Origin: Clostridia bacterium | GTDB lineage: Bacteria > Bacillota > Clostridia > UBA1212 > UBA1255 | Reading direction: 5' to 3' | NCBI GenBank assembly: GCA_017620915.1 | Contig: JAFZSK010000052.1 | Location: forward strand, 1 to 57,949 | DNA length: 57,949 bases | In this document: in pieces, positions 32,505 through 55,064 of the stretch | How positions within the stretch are numbered: position 1 is the first letter of the stretch | How the letters are laid out: every line of letters starts with the position of its first letter | Position numbers and translations under genes: made by a program | Notes under the pieces: generated by a model | What the model was told of the DNA's origin: nothing | Seen by the model: only the letters and a program-made list of their open reading frames with translations | Database searches by the model: none

Positions 32505-32520
32505 TGTTTCACGTGAAACA
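32505..32520. promoter_or_regulatory. parS site 1
   Basis: Perfect TGTTTCACGTGAAACA, the conserved ParB-loading palindrome, in the parB-DUF4446 gap. Confidence 0.95.
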
Positions 32521-32528
32521 ATTTCATT

Positions 32529-33425
32529 TCACGGTTTCCTCAGTAAGTATTCCAATAAACGCTCGCGTTCGTCTTTAGAATAATATTCTATAACGATCTT
32601 GCCCCGGCCGCCGCGGTCGTCCAGTTTAACTTTGGTACCCAGCGAGGACCGCAGCTGGTTCTGCATATATTCAATATCGCGGCTGATTGAAGCGTTTACG
32701 TTAGAATCTGCGGTGTCAAGCGCTTTATCTACCGCTTTATCGTCATCTTCAGTTGATTTGCCGCGTTTTTGCAGCTGTTTGACAAGCGCTTCAATCTGAC
32801 GAGCGTTTAAACCACGTTCTACAATAGCATTGGCAACGGTAATCTGCTGTTCCGGTGTCAACGCCAGCAACGGCCGCGCCTGTCCGGCAGTTAATTGACC
32901 GTTTATAATCAGTTCCTGCACTTTTTCATCCAGATTCAACAGACGCATGCGGTTGGCGATCTCACTGCGGCTCTTATTTCCAACAATTCCGGCTAGTTCC
33001 TCTTGAGTGAGTTCATAATCAACTACTAATTGGCGGTATGCAAGTGCTTCTTCGATAGGATTTAAATCTTCACGCTGAATATTCTCTATCAGAGCCAGCT
33101 CGCGCATCTCTTTAGGTGTTACATCTTTAATTATTACCGGAATTTTTAGCAGTCCGGCCATACGCGCCGCTCGCCAGCGGCGTTCGCCGGCAATAATTGT
33201 ATAGCCATTTGTGCTTTTATTTACAACAATTGGCTGGATGAGCCCGTGTTCACGTATAGAATCAGCCAGATCTTCGAGTTTTTCCGGGTCAAAAACTTTA
33301 CGCGGCTGGTCCTTAGCCGGTTCCACGGACATTATATCCACTTCAGTAATTCCGGTATCAATGGAATTTTCCACCAGCAAAGCGCCCAATCCTTTGCCTA
33401 AACCGCCTTTTTTAACAGTAGCCAT
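32529..33425 (-). CDS. parB: Chromosome partition protein ParB (Spo0J)
   Basis: CTP-dependent DNA clamp that loads at parS and spreads to organise origins. The 298 residues keep all canonical motifs: an N-terminal ParA-stimulating KGGLGKGLGALL, CTP-binding GERRWRAA (80-87) and ENIQRED (114-120), the helix-turn-helix at about 139-165 that reads parS, and a C-terminal dimer domain ending LDDRGGRGKIVIEYYSKDE. AGGAGG precedes ATG 33425. It sits 17 bases after parA. Three parS sites are within 2 kb. Codon use here is more AT-rich than in neighbouring genes. Confidence 0.97.
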   Translation of the reverse strand: MATVKKGGLGKGLGALLVENSIDTGITEVDIMSVEPAKDQPRKVFDPEKLEDLADSIREHGLIQPIVVNKSTNGYTIIAGERRWRAARMAGLLKIPVIIKDVTPKEMRELALIENIQREDLNPIEEALAYRQLVVDYELTQEELAGIVGNKSRSEIANRMRLLNLDEKVQELIINGQLTAGQARPLLALTPEQQITVANAIVERGLNARQIEALVKQLQKRGKSTEDDDKAVDKALDTADSNVNASISRDIEYMQNQLRSSLGTKVKLDDRGGRGKIVIEYYSKDERERLLEYLLRKP

Positions 33426-33442: not shown

Positions 33443-34210
33443 TCAGCGCTTAGATGCCGCTAAAAATTCTTCTGTAAACTTCTGATAGGCCTTAGCGCCT
33501 TTAGAGTTTTTATCATATAAAACGATCGGTAAGCCGTAACTGGGTGCTTCGGAAAGTCTAACGTTACGCGGGATCGCGGTTTTGTACACTTTAGCATCAA
33601 AATGATTTCGCACTTCATCTGCAACTTCAACAGAGAGCCTGGTGCGGTTGTTGAACATTGTCAACAGCACACCTTCCAGATAAAGTGACGGATTCAGGCG
33701 GCGCTGCACGATCTTGACCGTCTCCATCAGTTGAGTGAGGCCTTCCAGCGCAAAATATTCGCTCTGAATAGGAACCAGCACAGAATTGGCCGCGGTCAAT
33801 GCATTCAGCGTCAACAAGCCAAGCGACGGGGGACAGTCAATAATAATGAAATCAAATTCGTCCGTTGCTTTACTTAGCGCATCTTTTAAAATAGACTCTC
33901 GCGAGATCTGACTGACCAATTCGACCTCGGCACCGGCCAGATCCATACTGGAAGGACAGAGCATCAGACGATCCTGGGGTGTTTTGACGACCGCGTCCTG
34001 TATAGCCACGTCATTTATGATCACATCATAGATCGAACGACCAATCGATTTCTTTTCTACGCCCAGGCCGGTAGTAGAATTGCCCTGGGGATCCATATCG
34101 ATCAGCAGCGTCTTTTTTTTATGATAAGCCAGACACGCGCTCAGGTTTATGGCGGTAGTTGTTTTGCCGACACCGCCTTTTTGGTTCGCTATTGCCACTA
34201 TTTTTGCCAT
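33443..34210 (-). CDS. parA: Chromosome partition ATPase ParA (Soj)
   Basis: Deviant Walker-type ATPase of 255 residues that segregates origins with ParB and, in Bacillus, also modulates DnaA. The P-loop QKGGVGKTTTAINL with the signature Lys begins at residue 10; DPQGNSTTGLG and IIDCPPSLGLLTLNA follow. The start at 34210 gives MAKIVAIANQKGG and has GAGG about nine bases upstream. An in-frame ATG at 34225 would add five residues and has no ribosome site. A promoter and a parS site lie directly upstream. Confidence 0.97.
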   Translation of the reverse strand: MAKIVAIANQKGGVGKTTTAINLSACLAYHKKKTLLIDMDPQGNSTTGLGVEKKSIGRSIYDVIINDVAIQDAVVKTPQDRLMLCPSSMDLAGAEVELVSQISRESILKDALSKATDEFDFIIIDCPPSLGLLTLNALTAANSVLVPIQSEYFALEGLTQLMETVKIVQRRLNPSLYLEGVLLTMFNNRTRLSVEVADEVRNHFDAKVYKTAIPRNVRLSEAPSYGLPIVLYDKNSKGAKAYQKFTEEFLAASKR

Positions 34211-34252
34211 AGTGAATGCCCTCATTTCAGACTGTCATACACACCGAGCAAA

Positions 34253-34268
34253 TGTTTCACGTGAAACA
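34253..34268. promoter_or_regulatory. parS site 2
   Basis: Perfect TGTTTCACGTGAAACA in the predicted 5' untranslated region of parA, so ParB loading here could affect parAB transcription. Confidence 0.95.
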
Positions 34269-34368: not shown

Positions 34369-34384
34369 TGTTTCACGTGAAACA
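34369..34384. promoter_or_regulatory. parS site 3, in an extended palindrome
   Basis: Perfect TGTTTCACGTGAAACA; the symmetry continues outward so that 34365-34388 is a 24-bp perfect palindrome (half-site GGAGTGTTTCAC). It lies between parA and the gyrB stop. The rest of 34226-34484 is AT-rich and holds no gene. Confidence 0.95.
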
Positions 34385-48489: not shown

Positions 48490-50466
48490 ATGGCACAGGA
48501 ACGGCACTGTTTTGGAGAATATGATATTGCGGTGATCGGCGCGGGGCACGCGGGCTGCGAAGCGGCGCTGGCGGCGGCAAAACTCGGGCTCCGGACCGTG
48601 GTGTTTGCCGTAACGCTGGACGGGATCGCCAACATGGCGTGCAACCCCAGCATCGGCGGTACTGCGAAGGGCCAGCTCGTGCGCGAGATCGACGCGCTGG
48701 GCGGAACCATGGGCAAAGCCGCGGACGCGACGGCAATACAGGTGCGCTTTCTGAACCGGGCCAAAGGGCCGGCGGTGTATTCACCGCGGGCGCAGATCGA
48801 CCGCCGTCAATACCAGATATACATGAAGCACGAACTCGAACGGACGCCGAACCTGGATCTGAAGCAGGGCGAGATAGTAGAAATATTGACCGAGACCCCC
48901 GAAAACGGCGGCAGACCGCGCGTTTCCGGCGTGGTCACCCACCTCGGCGCGTATTACAAATGCCGCTGCGCAGTGGCGTGCACCGGCACGTACCTGAAAG
49001 GACGCGTGATAGTGGGCGAAAACTCGTACAGCAGCGGTCCCGACGGGCAGTTTCCGGCCAATAAACTTTCCGCCAGCCTCAAAGCCGCGGGCCACACTAT
49101 TATAAGACTTAAAACCGGCACGCCGCCGCGCGTCAACGGCCTCACCGTGGACTACTCGGCGCTGGAGATCCAGAACGGGGACGAACCGCCGTTTACATTT
49201 CAGTTCGATCCGGAGGACGCGGATCCCCGCGGCGTGGCGGGCGGCGGCAGCCAGATCCCGTGTTATCTTACGCACACCACTAACGAGACACATAATATAA
49301 TAAAAGCGAACCTTCACCGTTCGCCGCTGTTCAACGGGTCGATTGAGGGCGTGGGACCGCGGTATTGTCCGTCGATCGAGGACAAGATCATGCGGTTTGC
49401 CGACAAGGACCGCCATCAGATCTTCCTGGAGCCCCTGGGGCGCGAGACGGAGGAGGTGTATCTGCAGGGATTGTCCTCGAGCCTGCCGGAAGACGTGCAG
49501 CTGGATTTTGTGCACAGCATCCCGGGGCTGGAAAACGTCAGCGTGATGCGGCCGGCGTATGCTATCGAGTATGATGCTATTGACGCCACCGAACTGGAGC
49601 TGTCGCTGGAGAGCAAGCTGGTGGACGGCCTGTTCTGCGCCGGACAGATCAACGGGTCTTCGGGGTACGAAGAAGCGGCGGGGCAGGGCCTGATCGCGGG
49701 CATCAACGCCGCGCAGAAGCTCAAAGGCCGCGAGCCGCTCATTCTGGACCGCAGCGAGGCGTACATCGGCGTGCTGATCGACGATCTGGTGACGCGGGGC
49801 ACGAAGGAGCCGTACCGGATGATGACATCGCGGGCGGAATACCGGCTGCTCTTGCGGCAGGACAACGCGGACGCGCGCCTTACCGAAAAAGGCTACGCCG
49901 TGGGGCTGATCTCCGAGGCGCGGTACCGGCGGTTTACGGAACGTCAACAGCGCATCACGGCGGCAGCGGACGCGCTGGAGGCAACGCATTTGTCTCCCGG
50001 CGAAATTGTCAACACGTTTCTGGACAGGCAGGGCAGCTCCCGCGTCCACAGCGGCGTCAGTGCGGCGGACCTGCTCCGGCGGCCGGAATTGACGCTGGCG
50101 GCGCTGCAGGAAGTATTGCCCGCGGATGTGAAAGCGACGATTGAAGCATTGGCCCCGGTGGAAGCGGAGCAGGTGGAGATCTTAATTAAATACAGCGGGT
50201 ACATCCAGCGCGAACTGGTGCAGGTGGAACAGTTCCGCCGCCTCGAGAAACAGCGGATCCCGGACAATGTCAACTACGCCGATGTACCCAGCATCAGCAA
50301 CGAAGCGCGGGAAAAACTGGCGAAGATCCGCCCGGCGTCTATCGGGCAGGCCATGCGTATCACCGGTGTTTCTCCGGCGGACATTGCGGCGCTGATGGTT
50401 TATCTGCACCGGTTCGGCAGGGGAACAGACCCCGGGAACGGCGCGGAAGGCGGTGAGCGCGGGTGA
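48490..50466 (+). CDS. mnmG: tRNA modification enzyme MnmG
   Basis: 658-residue FAD enzyme and partner of MnmE. The dinucleotide fold is VIGAGHAGCEAALAAAKLG; the family segments CNPSIGGTAKGQLVREIDAL, SGYEEAAGQGLIAGINAA and SRAEYRLLLRQDNAD are all intact. The start at 48490 gives MAQERHCFGEYDIAVIGAGH and has GGGGA nine bases upstream; the frame extends further but into mnmE. It overlaps rsmG by four bases. Confidence 0.97.
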   Translation: MAQERHCFGEYDIAVIGAGHAGCEAALAAAKLGLRTVVFAVTLDGIANMACNPSIGGTAKGQLVREIDALGGTMGKAADATAIQVRFLNRAKGPAVYSPRAQIDRRQYQIYMKHELERTPNLDLKQGEIVEILTETPENGGRPRVSGVVTHLGAYYKCRCAVACTGTYLKGRVIVGENSYSSGPDGQFPANKLSASLKAAGHTIIRLKTGTPPRVNGLTVDYSALEIQNGDEPPFTFQFDPEDADPRGVAGGGSQIPCYLTHTTNETHNIIKANLHRSPLFNGSIEGVGPRYCPSIEDKIMRFADKDRHQIFLEPLGRETEEVYLQGLSSSLPEDVQLDFVHSIPGLENVSVMRPAYAIEYDAIDATELELSLESKLVDGLFCAGQINGSSGYEEAAGQGLIAGINAAQKLKGREPLILDRSEAYIGVLIDDLVTRGTKEPYRMMTSRAEYRLLLRQDNADARLTEKGYAVGLISEARYRRFTERQQRITAAADALEATHLSPGEIVNTFLDRQGSSRVHSGVSAADLLRRPELTLAALQEVLPADVKATIEALAPVEAEQVEILIKYSGYIQRELVQVEQFRRLEKQRIPDNVNYADVPSISNEAREKLAKIRPASIGQAMRITGVSPADIAALMVYLHRFGRGTDPGNGAEGGERG

Positions 50467-51161
50467 GGACAGAGCTGATAGGGCCGGAATTGTCGCCGGC
50501 ACAGGCGGAACAGTTTGAAAAATACTGCGCGCTGCTCGCCGAGTGGAACAAAGTGATGAATCTTACGGCGATCGTTGACCCCGACGAAGTGGCAGTCAAG
50601 CATTTCGCCGACAGCCTGACGCTGCTGCCGTATCTGGACCGGGCGGGAACGCGCACGCTGATCGACGTAGGTACCGGCGCGGGCTTTCCGGGCATTCCGC
50701 TCAAGATCATGCGGCCGGAGCTGGAAGTTACACTGCTGGATTCGCTGGAAAAGCGGGTGCGGTTTCTGGATACGGTGACCTGCGAGCTCGGTCTTTCGGG
50801 CATCCGGACGATACACGCCCGCGCGGAAGACGCCGGCCGCGACCGGAAATTACGGGGGCAATTCGATGCTTCTGTTGCCCGGGCGGTGGCGCCAATGAAC
50901 GTGCTGTGCGAGTATTGCCTGCCATTCGTGCGGCCGGACGGGAAGTTTTTTGCGATGAAAGGTCCTGCGCAGGAGGATTTCCGGCGGGCGCTGAAAGAGC
51001 TCGGCGGCGAGGTAGAGGCGGATGACGTGTTTGAATTGACGGGGGCCGCGGGAGAGGGACCCGCGCTGCAGCGCCGGATCATTTGCGTTAAAAAGAGCGG
51101 GACAACACCCGCGAAGTACCCGCGGCGGGCCGGGTTGCCCGCGAAGAAACCGCTGATGTAA
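50463..51161 (+). CDS. rsmG: 16S rRNA m7G methyltransferase RsmG
   Basis: 232-residue SAM-dependent enzyme that methylates the 530 loop of 16S rRNA. The SAM site IDVGTGAGFPGIPLKIMRP is typical, as are EWNKVMNLTAI and ARAVAPMNVLCEYCLP. GTG start at 50463 overlaps the mnmG stop. It ends with a basic tail (PRRAGLPAKKP). A good terminator follows, closing the rpmH-rsmG series. Confidence 0.96.
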   Translation: MRTELIGPELSPAQAEQFEKYCALLAEWNKVMNLTAIVDPDEVAVKHFADSLTLLPYLDRAGTRTLIDVGTGAGFPGIPLKIMRPELEVTLLDSLEKRVRFLDTVTCELGLSGIRTIHARAEDAGRDRKLRGQFDASVARAVAPMNVLCEYCLPFVRPDGKFFAMKGPAQEDFRRALKELGGEVEADDVFELTGAAGEGPALQRRIICVKKSGTTPAKYPRRAGLPAKKPLM

Positions 51162-51431: not shown

Positions 51432-52310
51432 ATGGAAAAAGAAGAACTGAAGCTGGCGGTCAATATTCCGCTCAATATGATACGGATCGGGGTGTTCGTT
51501 CAGAATCTTACTATAGGGAGAGGGATGCGGGCGCTGGTGCGCTCAATCGAGAAAAACGGCGTGCTCTCGCCGATCTGTGTATCCGCCGAAAGCAACGGAA
51601 TGTATGAACTGATCACCGGCAAACGCCGGGTGCTGGCGGCAAAGAAAGCCGGTCTCACAGAGATTCCCGCGGTGGTGTACAATCCGAGTTCCGGCGACGC
51701 CGGGCTGGTCAAAATGCTGAGAGACGGTATCGAAGGGATGCACTATTTTGATGAAGCCGAGAGCTACCGGAACATTATTGAGTCAATGGAGGTCTCTCAG
51801 GCGGAACTGGCCCGGACGCTGGGCAAGAGCCAGGGGTACATTTCAAACAAAGTGCGGCTGCTGACGCTGGCGCCGACGGTGCGGCGGCTGATCGAGGACA
51901 ATAATATTTCCGAGCGCCACGCGCGGGAGGTGATGAAGATCTTTGATGAAAGAATGCAGAGAGCGGTGGTGATCAGCATAATCGAAAATGAATTGACCGT
52001 GAAAGAGACGGAAGAGGAAGTTGACCTGATACTGAAAGACAGCGGAGATCTGCGGCGCAGACTGGCGCGGAAAGTCGCCGATTACGAACTCTGGAACCGG
52101 GAGGTCGAAAGCAGCAGCCGGGAGATCCTCGCGTCGGACAAAATGCGGCAACTGATAATAGTCACTAAAAGCATCGTGGATATTGCCCGGAAAAGCGGAC
52201 TGCGGGTGCTGTCGGGGCAGAACAACACGGAAAAATATCTGGAGATCAAGTTACAGATACTGAAGGGCGGCGAGAGCGCACCCGTCGAAAACACGCAAAA
52301 AGCCGCGTAA
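51432..52310 (+). CDS. Noc-like ParB paralogue with altered CTP-binding motifs
   Basis: 292-residue ParB/Noc-family DNA-binding protein in the usual noc place, directly after rsmG. The ParB fold is visible (MRALVRSIEKNGVLSPICV) and the helix-turn-helix is good (VSQAELARTLGKSQGYISNK, about 121-140). The nucleotide-binding motifs are altered: GERR is GKRR (63-66), and the ENIQR motif is replaced by LRDGIEGMHYFDE (about 96-108). The N-terminal amphipathic helix of Bacillus Noc is not obvious. ATG at 51432 has AAGGA eight bases upstream. TGTCGAA repeats flank the gene on both sides and may be its own sites. It could be nucleoid-occlusion factor, or a local regulator. parA and parB are elsewhere in the window. 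Confidence 0.8.
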   Translation: MEKEELKLAVNIPLNMIRIGVFVQNLTIGRGMRALVRSIEKNGVLSPICVSAESNGMYELITGKRRVLAAKKAGLTEIPAVVYNPSSGDAGLVKMLRDGIEGMHYFDEAESYRNIIESMEVSQAELARTLGKSQGYISNKVRLLTLAPTVRRLIEDNNISERHAREVMKIFDERMQRAVVISIIENELTVKETEEEVDLILKDSGDLRRRLARKVADYELWNREVESSSREILASDKMRQLIIVTKSIVDIARKSGLRVLSGQNNTEKYLEIKLQILKGGESAPVENTQKAA

Positions 52311-52538: not shown

Positions 52539-55064
52539 ATGATCAAACAGGAAGAAGACAAGAACTCTGAGGCGTTTCGCGTACAGCACAAAGTCGTACC
52601 CAGAGATATAGAAAAAGAGATGAAACAGTCGTTCATAGAGTATGCTATGAGCGTTATCGTGGACCGCGCGGTCCCGGATGTACGGGACGGTCTGAAGCCG
52701 GTGCACCGGAGGATCATCTACACGATGTTCGAAGAAGGGTACACGCCGGACAAAGCGTACAGAAAATGCGCGACGACGGTCGGTGTGGTCATGGGTAAAT
52801 ACCACCCCCACGGCGACGCGGCGATATATGACGCGCTGGTGAGGCTGGCGCAGGATTTCTCGATGCGCGCGGTGCTGGTGGACGGCAACGGCAACTTCGG
52901 TTCCCGCGACAACGACCCGCCCGCGGCCATGCGTTATACCGAAGCGAGATTGACGAAGATCGCGCTGGAAATGGTTGCCGACATCAATAAAAACACAGTC
53001 GACTTCAAACCCAATTTCGACGAGCACGAAGAAGAGCCGGTGGTATTGCCCTCGCGGTTCCCGAACCTGCTGGTCAACGGGTCTTCCGGTATTGCCGTCG
53101 GTATGGCCACGAACATCCCGCCGCACAACCTGGGCGAGGTCATTGACGGCGTGGTGGCGCTGATCGACGATCCGGAGATCTCGGTGGACGGCCTGATGCA
53201 GTACATCAAAGGCCCCGATTTTCCCACCGCGGGCAACATCATGGGCAAGCAGGGCATCCGCGAAGCGTACATGACGGGCAAGGGCCGGATAATCGTCCGC
53301 GCCAAATGCGATATAGAGGAACTGCCCAACGGCCGGCAGCAGATCGTGATCAGCGAGCTGCCCTACATGGTCAACAACGCCGCGCTGGTGGCGCGCATCG
53401 CCGATCTGGTCAAGGATAAGCGCGTTGACTCCATCAGCGGCCTCCGCGACGAATACAGCAAAGCCGGCATCCGCATCGTCATCGAGTTGAAGAAGGACGC
53501 CAACGCAAACGTACTGCTCAACCAGCTCTACAAATATACCGACCTGGAGACGGCGTTCTGCGTCAACATGCTCACCTGCGTCCCGGGAGAAGGCGGCGGA
53601 TACCAGCCCCGGATCGTCAACCTCAAAGAAGCGCTGGAATACTATATCAGACACCAGGAATCCGTGGTGCGCCGCCGGACGCAGTTCGATCTGGACAAAG
53701 ACCTGGACCGTGCGCACATACTGGAAGGCACGCTGATCGCGCTGGATCATATTGACGAAGTGATCCGGATCATCCGCGAATCGCGCACCGAGCCGGACGC
53801 AAAAGCCGGATTGATGGCGAGATTCGATTTCACCGAGCGGCAGGCGCAGTACATCGTGGATATGCGGCTGGGCCGGTTGACCGGGATCGAAAAGGACAAA
53901 GTACTGGAAGAGTATAAAGCCAAACAGGAGGAGATCGCGTATTTCCGCGGCCTGCTGGAGGATGAGAAAAAACTGATGGGAGTTGTAAAAGACGAAATTC
54001 TGGCGGTCAAAGCGCAGTACGCGGACGAGCGCCGGACCCGGATACTGCCGTACGAGGGCGAGATCGATCTGGAAGACCTGATCAACGAGCACGATATCGC
54101 CATTACGCTGACGCATCTGGGATATATCAAGCGCACTTCGGCGGATACGTACAAGGCGCAGCACCGCGGCGGCAAGGGCATCACCGGCGCCGGCACCCGC
54201 GAAGAGGACTTCGTGGAGCAGCTGATGATCACATCGTCCCACGATACGCTGCTGTTCATCACGGACAAAGGCCGCATGTACTCGCTCAAAGGGTACGAGA
54301 TTCCGGACGCGGGCCGCACGGCCAAGGGCACCGCGGTGGTGAACCTGCTGAGATTTACGGAGGGCGAAAAGGTCGCGTCGGTAATTGCCATCCGCAGCTT
54401 TGAGGACGCAAAGTACCTGATCTTCGGCACGCGGAACGGTTTGATAAAGAAGACGGCGTTGTCCGCGTATGCGAATGTGCGGGCATCGGGCATCATTGCC
54501 ATCGACCTGCGCGAAGGCGACAAGATCGTCAACGTGCGCCTGGCCAACGACGAAGACATCATGATGGTGACGCACGGCGGCATGTCGATCCGCTTTGAGC
54601 AGGAAGATGTGCGCGAGACCGGCAGAGCGTCAATGGGTGTACGCGGCATTACGCTGAAAGAGAACGACTACGTGATCGGCATGGATCTGTGCAAAGAAGG
54701 CAAGACGCCGCTGCTGATCAGCGAATTCGGCTACGGCAAACGCGGCCGCATCGACGATTACCGGCTGCAGGGCCGCGGCGGCAAAGGCATCATCACGTAC
54801 AAGATCTCCGAGAAGACCGGCAGCTTGGTCAGCATGCTGATGGTAGACGACGACAACGATGTGATGATCATCACCAGCAACGGCACGATCATTCGCGTGC
54901 ATGTTAAGGACATCAGCATTTTCGGGCGGGCAACGCGCGGCGTGACGCTGATGCGGGCGACGGCGGACAATTATATTGCCGACTGCGCCGCCACGACTTT
55001 TGACGAAGGCGAGGAGAGCGCAGTGCCGGAGACAGACGCCGCCGAAGACCGGACCGAGGAGTAA
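52539..55064 (+). CDS. gyrA: DNA gyrase subunit A
   Basis: Breakage-reunion subunit of gyrase, 841 residues. The winged-helix region, the catalytic Tyr133 ([10 protein letters not shown]) and the C-terminal beta-pinwheel with the GyrA box QHRGGKGI are present. The quinolone region reads [16 protein letters not shown]: the position of E. coli Ser83 is Ala94, while Asp98 keeps the Asp87 position. The acidic C-terminal tail ([20 protein letters not shown]) is usual. It has its own promoter next to the noc-like gene. The 5' end lies 228 bases after that gene's stop. Confidence 0.97.

Follow-up and report, generated by a model that had tools for sequence, protein, structure and literature searches.

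Background

The action of ParB and Noc is regarded as centred on clamps operated by CTP. What, then, is the part played by a chromosomal protein whose gene occupies the classical position of noc and whose product has no canonical CTP boxes? The question is raised by an open reading frame in the window (the whole 57,949-nucleotide stretch of DNA that was analysed) from a genome (G000) belonging to a genus of uncultured, mostly rumen bacteria, of which seven species were compared. A chromosomal Noc that has its sites but not its switch, with canonical relatives at hand, offers a direct test of the purpose of the switch and a case for how spreading can be replaced.

Genomic context and assignment to Noc

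The frame and its neighbours are as follows.

50463–51161, forward strand: rsmG, the upstream neighbour that marks the noc position
51432–52310, forward strand: noc, an open frame of 292 aa encoding a Noc orthologue without canonical CTP boxes
52539–55064, forward strand: gyrA, the downstream neighbour

Situated between rsmG and gyrA and following rsmG immediately in the mnmG-rsmG cluster, the gene lies where noc is classically found, as an earlier note on this DNA had recognised, and the rsmG-noc order is identical in the genus-mates whose contigs extend far enough. An upstream start (GTG, 51168) was rejected, as the added N-terminus is not conserved. The N-terminus of the product itself (MEKEELKLAV) is of low model confidence, is not conserved in the genus alignment, and shows no recognisable conserved amphipathic helix of the membrane-targeting kind.

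Two domains were delimited downstream of the N-domain.

51732–52043, forward strand: DNA-binding domain HTH_ParB, with Q134, K140, and R162 (Pfam; match to Noc-NBS 6y93)
52119–52262, forward strand: putative C-terminal dimerisation domain (helix-strand-strand in the secondary structure of the model), its role assigned by analogy with ParB/Noc

Pfam recognised HTH_ParB (1.4e-27), in keeping with the clean helix-turn-helix described in the earlier note, and ParB_N only in part (residues 32–85, 3.5e-12). Among the NCBIfam models the top score was that of Noc (TIGR04285, 167 bits, below the cut-off of 315), and the nearest solved chains are the Noc proteins of Geobacillus and Bacillus. The AlphaFold2 model (pLDDT 84) has its best match in the Noc-NBS DNA-binding domain 6y93 (Z 16.1, 2.2 Å over 115 residues), and the ParB/sulfiredoxin-type N-domain is still present in it. 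An alignment-based search for relatives yielded 77 loci, and a search of genome contigs with the single protein found no relative.

By position, fold, and sequence, the product is the syntenic orthologue of Noc. It has in common with the Noc of Bacillus subtilis and Geobacillus (TIGR04285) the place after rsmG, the fold, the Q/K/R residues of the HTH domain, and the scattered ATTTCCCGGGAAAT sites, whereas the loss of Boxes I and III, the half-site arrays, and a score of 167 bits against 315 set it apart. It thus qualifies as a Noc in position, fold, residues, and site, yet departs from the family in the CTP boxes that define it, and for this reason we filed it as a Noc variant rather than as a standard member.

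The window also contains parA, parB, and parS.

32505–32520, forward strand: exact parS, a site of ParB and not of Noc
32529–33425, reverse strand: canonical ParB with intact CTP boxes (motifs, Pfam)
33443–34225, reverse strand: ParA (homologues adjoin parB in relatives)
34253–34268, forward strand: exact parS
34369–34384, forward strand: exact parS

The motifs GERRWRAA and ENIQRED, which the earlier note had read in this ParB, were confirmed, and exact parS sites, three in all, lie on either side of parAB; segregation is therefore served separately from Noc. The noc product resembles ParB/Spo0J (TIGR00180) in domain order and fold and differs from it in its Noc-type specificity residues, in having no parA neighbour, and in that a separate canonical ParB, with parS, is present in the genome. 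As its residues are Noc-type rather than parS-type and parA is not adjacent, it does not belong with the ParB proteins of parABS systems.

Loss of the CTP boxes

The three box positions were located by alignment.

51492–51503, forward strand: Box I position, VFVQ replacing xQPR
51618–51629, forward strand: Box II, GKRR, in which GxxR is kept (G63 and R66, invariant in the genus)
51717–51737, forward strand: Box III position, LRDGIEG replacing IENLQRE, one residue shorter

When the proteins are aligned with those of canonical relatives, neither Box I (QPR) nor Box III (ENxxR) is found in any of the seven genus members, and the Box III position is shortened by a deletion of one residue. The E of GERR is also gone in the source genome, and the first arginine of Box II is additionally lost in three of the seven species. 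The stretches of B. subtilis Noc that served as a reference in this alignment match the PDB alignment of 7ol9, and the canonical relatives aligned with them give an identical result. The motif loss is no effect of chance or annotation, being the same in six further species of the genus, while QPR, GERR, and ENLQR are retained in g2, g3, and g4, further genera of its family. The GxxR of Box II (G63 and R66) is invariant in 7/7 genus members and in A2. Thus the earlier claim that the CTP motifs were lost applies to Box I, the E of GERR, and all of Box III, and does not extend to Box II, where GKRR retains GxxR.

Caulobacter ParB loses CTP binding, or binds CTP more weakly, when any one of R60, R103, R104, N136, and R139 is changed to alanine, R60, N136, and R139 belonging to Boxes I and III (PMC8367383). 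The R89A variant of B. subtilis Noc does not bind CTP and N121S binds it weakly, and neither spreads nor reaches the membrane (PMC8429893); Bacillus ParB-box mutants are non-functional and spreading mutants cannot act in division (PMC4331003). Because box mutants of Caulobacter ParB and Bacillus Noc lose binding or spreading, a loss of CTP clamping is to be expected in the Noc of this genus, and the sequences suggest that its CTP switch was probably lost in evolution. The invariant GxxR arginine contacts phosphate, so that the protein may bind another ligand, or CTP weakly.

Purifying selection acts on the gene, which is not dying: dN/dS against the nearest relative (75% identity) is put at about 0.15–0.28 and, over the gene, at about 0.16–0.2, with about 0.1 in the HTH domain. 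The N-domain diverges faster than in the canonical set (pairwise identity 0.39 in the genus vs. 0.64).

No CTP-less Noc was found in the literature searched. CTP independence has its closest precedent in ParT of the Streptomyces plasmid SCP2, another HTH protein of ParB-like type that works on DNA with no need of CTP (PMC12260392). In contrast to the protein described here, ParT is missing the whole CTPase domain, has a ParA partner on the plasmid, and diffuses from one 18-bp site (PMC12260392), whereas the Noc of this genus keeps the domain fold (ParB_N residues 32–85, model), is encoded on the chromosome, and has sites that form arrays.

Noc sites and their arrangement

Noc and parS specificity are distinguished by Q173, K179 and/or K184, and R201 in Caulobacter numbering (PMC7383237). 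The product of the source genome has the Noc-type residues Q134, K140, and R162, with T at Caulobacter position 184. Its genome contains six perfect Bacillus-type Noc sites (NBS), ATTTCCCGGGAAAT, vs. none for the reversed control, and 24 vs. 2 within two mismatches; these and the following site statistics come from pattern searches and retrieved sequence stretches. Four genus-mates have 10, 4, 3, and 1 perfect sites (reversed control 0), and the genome pattern search found no perfect NBS in G001 and G004. The per-genome counts overlap those of canonical relatives, and class genomes in which only one ParB-type protein was found have mostly 0–1 NBS within one mismatch. In the 57,949-nt window itself, no Noc site was found beyond chance. 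As predicted from residues and sites, the DNA addressing of the protein is that of Noc. The earlier note had entertained something other than Noc, i.e., a new type of nucleoid protein, which does not agree with a syntenic Noc orthologue and a Bacillus Noc site that is present and enriched; this site had been named beforehand as speaking against the proposal, as had close homologues with canonical motifs, which occur only outside the genus.

Around these palindromes, additional half-sites have accumulated. Within 100 bp of a perfect NBS, 26 extra half-sites were counted at 12 of 19 sites in three species with the box-less Noc (3.4 expected from local background), whereas in the ten canonical relatives 4 of 48 sites carried five between them (4.1 expected). 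The difference in sites (Fisher p 9e-6; p 0.016 without G002) owes most of its signal to G002, and because the genomes compared are related, few independent events lie behind these statistics. The source genome has extra half-sites at only 2/6 perfect sites, plus two separate tandem pairs. The offsets are periodic, at about 10.25 bp (p 4e-5, with seven candidate periods examined). Tandem 11-bp half-sites were searched as ATTTCCCGG-NN-ATTTCCCGG, with one mismatch, in 391 genomes of the class and 31 of the order: in the class set, more than one occurred only in this genus (G000, G002) and in g11 (G023), in the order set G003, G006, and G026 likewise have two or more, and all other genomes with any have exactly one each.

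The addresses of the sites are shared. In the genus, NBS are found upstream of both comM/yifB and recA, in the gap between rnc and the gene that follows it, and next to gpmI (gene names being a reading of the sequences, not curated annotation). All four addresses are common to several genus members and to canonical-Noc relatives of the same family, and those at recA and beside rnc also occur in G018 of family f4; these Noc addresses are kept. The canonical species have one perfect palindrome there, often inside att-NBS-aat, while in box-less species half-sites are often added, e.g., ATTTCCCGG-ct-ATTTCCCGGGAAAT in G002, ATTTCCCGG-ac-ATTTCCCGGGAAAT in G006, and, at the rnc address of G004, roughly five units in succession. 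Single Noc sites have been turned into helically phased half-site rows at several addresses, which suggests, from sequence, that repeated sites may replace the nucleotide-driven clamp. Phased Noc half-site arrays were not found in the literature searched. Iteron centromeres such as ParR/parC, where a row of DNA-binding protein is loaded onto direct repeats roughly one helix turn long, may resemble them in their one-turn repeats and differ in an unrelated protein fold.

In one species, G005, Noc (L004/L052) has lost R201 and R204 of the HTH domain, Noc sites are few, and a long row of drifted TTTTCC units is present (L233, 764–1158), a possible co-drift of protein and site.

Sites and promoters

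Promoters were scored on both sides of each site with generic −35/−10 hexamers. With this scoring, promoter-like pairs start 1–4 bp from the site at 7/22 sites of the box-less set (0.7 expected) and at 13/48 sites of the canonical set (3.3 expected), the latter having a second peak at 10–11 bp. Many of the box-less genus sites lie 2–3 bp upstream of −35 boxes, and the −10-only profile of this set peaks at 26 bp. At recA, the spacings in three species are 14, 24, and 36 bp, differing by approximately whole turns. Since closeness to promoters also occurs with canonical Noc, it is not a product of the loss of CTP boxes; it characterises the Noc sites of this order whether or not the boxes have been lost, canonical relatives included, and hints at a promoter role for canonical Noc as well. 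The earlier idea of a conventional DNA binder gains support from these sites at fixed distances from putative −35 elements. A promoter-linked role for Noc was not found described in the literature searched. KorB and VirB, also ParB-like, regulate genes at promoters as well; both are reported to use CTP and have other operators (PMC11790492, PMC10770331).

Among individual loci, two paralogous genes of unknown function in the source genome (L173, L174) both show a strong −35/−10 pair with a perfect Noc site 3 bp ahead of it. In canonical-Noc relatives (L236–L275), whose Noc boxes are intact, sites are found 2 or 10–11 bp upstream of −35-like hexamers.

Possible explanations

We lean, if only slightly, towards a Noc that has lost its CTP switch, relies on site arrays instead of CTP-driven spreading, and probably acts at promoters. 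Without CTP, the N-domains would not close into a clamp, and the protein would not slide but stay where it is bound. The C-terminal dimer would bind the palindrome as a seed, and further copies would bind neighbouring half-sites at whole turns, on one face of the DNA. The number of sites in a row, and not CTP, would then set how much protein accumulates, so that accumulation would be written in the DNA itself, and at promoters the static complex could contact or exclude RNA polymerase. Part of what the protein does would probably be to regulate housekeeping genes locally, either in addition to marking the nucleoid or in place of it.

Much of this could also be expected of an ordinary regulator of housekeeping promoters with no nucleoid role, an activator at about −45 for which the rows are upstream tandem operators. 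The 7/22 promoter-like pairs at 1–4 bp and the recA spacings fit such a protein, which we nevertheless consider rather unlikely, given that the sites are scattered over unrelated housekeeping genes and come equally close to promoters (2 or 10–11 bp) in canonical-Noc relatives. It is less likely again that the protein still switches via a nucleotide or another phosphate ligand, with the kept GxxR, a remodelled pocket, and a different trigger. Neither G63 nor R66 varies in the genus or in A2, the N-domain fold is kept and under selection, and, according to a survey, proteins of the ParB-CTPase fold with divergent boxes can have ATP or GTP as ligand, and sequence is an unreliable guide to the nucleotide bound (PMC12704722). 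Against this, the asparagine and arginine of Box III and the arginine of Box I are gone in 7/7 species and the other Box II arginine in three, the arrays suggest less need for spreading, and the retained arginine could serve packing.

The remaining two explanations appear improbable to us. If Noc were a decaying remnant whose sites persist by inertia or for another binder, the faster divergence of the N-domain, the few or no perfect sites in G001, G004, and G005, and the loss of R201 and R204 in the last of these would follow naturally, but not the low dN/dS, especially in the HTH domain, or the maintenance of perfect sites and phased half-sites. Equally doubtful is that the arrays are minisatellite-like tandem repeats unrelated to Noc: their linkers vary from unit to unit, layouts at one address vary between species, the seed palindrome is the common element, and the reversed control has almost no arrays, although the longest arrays belong to G026, in whose 79% complete assembly no Noc was found, a g11 profile search included.

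Box loss elsewhere in the order

In g11, which belongs to another family (f4), a Noc-like protein has lost all CTP boxes and kept the HTH domain, and the sites take two forms: palindromes that overlap with an 11-bp offset in G023, and in G026 long rows of as many as about 18 half-sites, with a period of 11 bp. The best protein tree separates the box losses of g1 from those of g11/g12, and a single clade of box losses is not rejected (AU p 0.29), so that "independent" refers here to the tree and taxonomy and not to the rejection of one clade. We therefore suggest only tentatively, as something possible and short of probable, that two or more lineages of one order lost the Noc CTP switch independently of each other, with single sites becoming half-site rows of one-turn spacing in both and ancestral addresses kept, i.e., that nucleotide-driven spreading was traded for site multiplicity.

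The five g11 proteins (L034–L038, from G030, G024, G025, G027, and G023, respectively) have long variable N-termini and no CTP box, with a Noc-type HTH remaining. The overlapping double palindrome of G023, ATTTCCCGGAAATTTTCCGGGAAAT, is recurrent (L220–L223), and the iteron-like rows of G026 (L216, 2136–2324; L217, 1750–1837; L214, 1224–1290) are apparently intergenic. Two more Noc-like proteins of the order, L029 (G028) and L050 (G017), are also without ENxxR.
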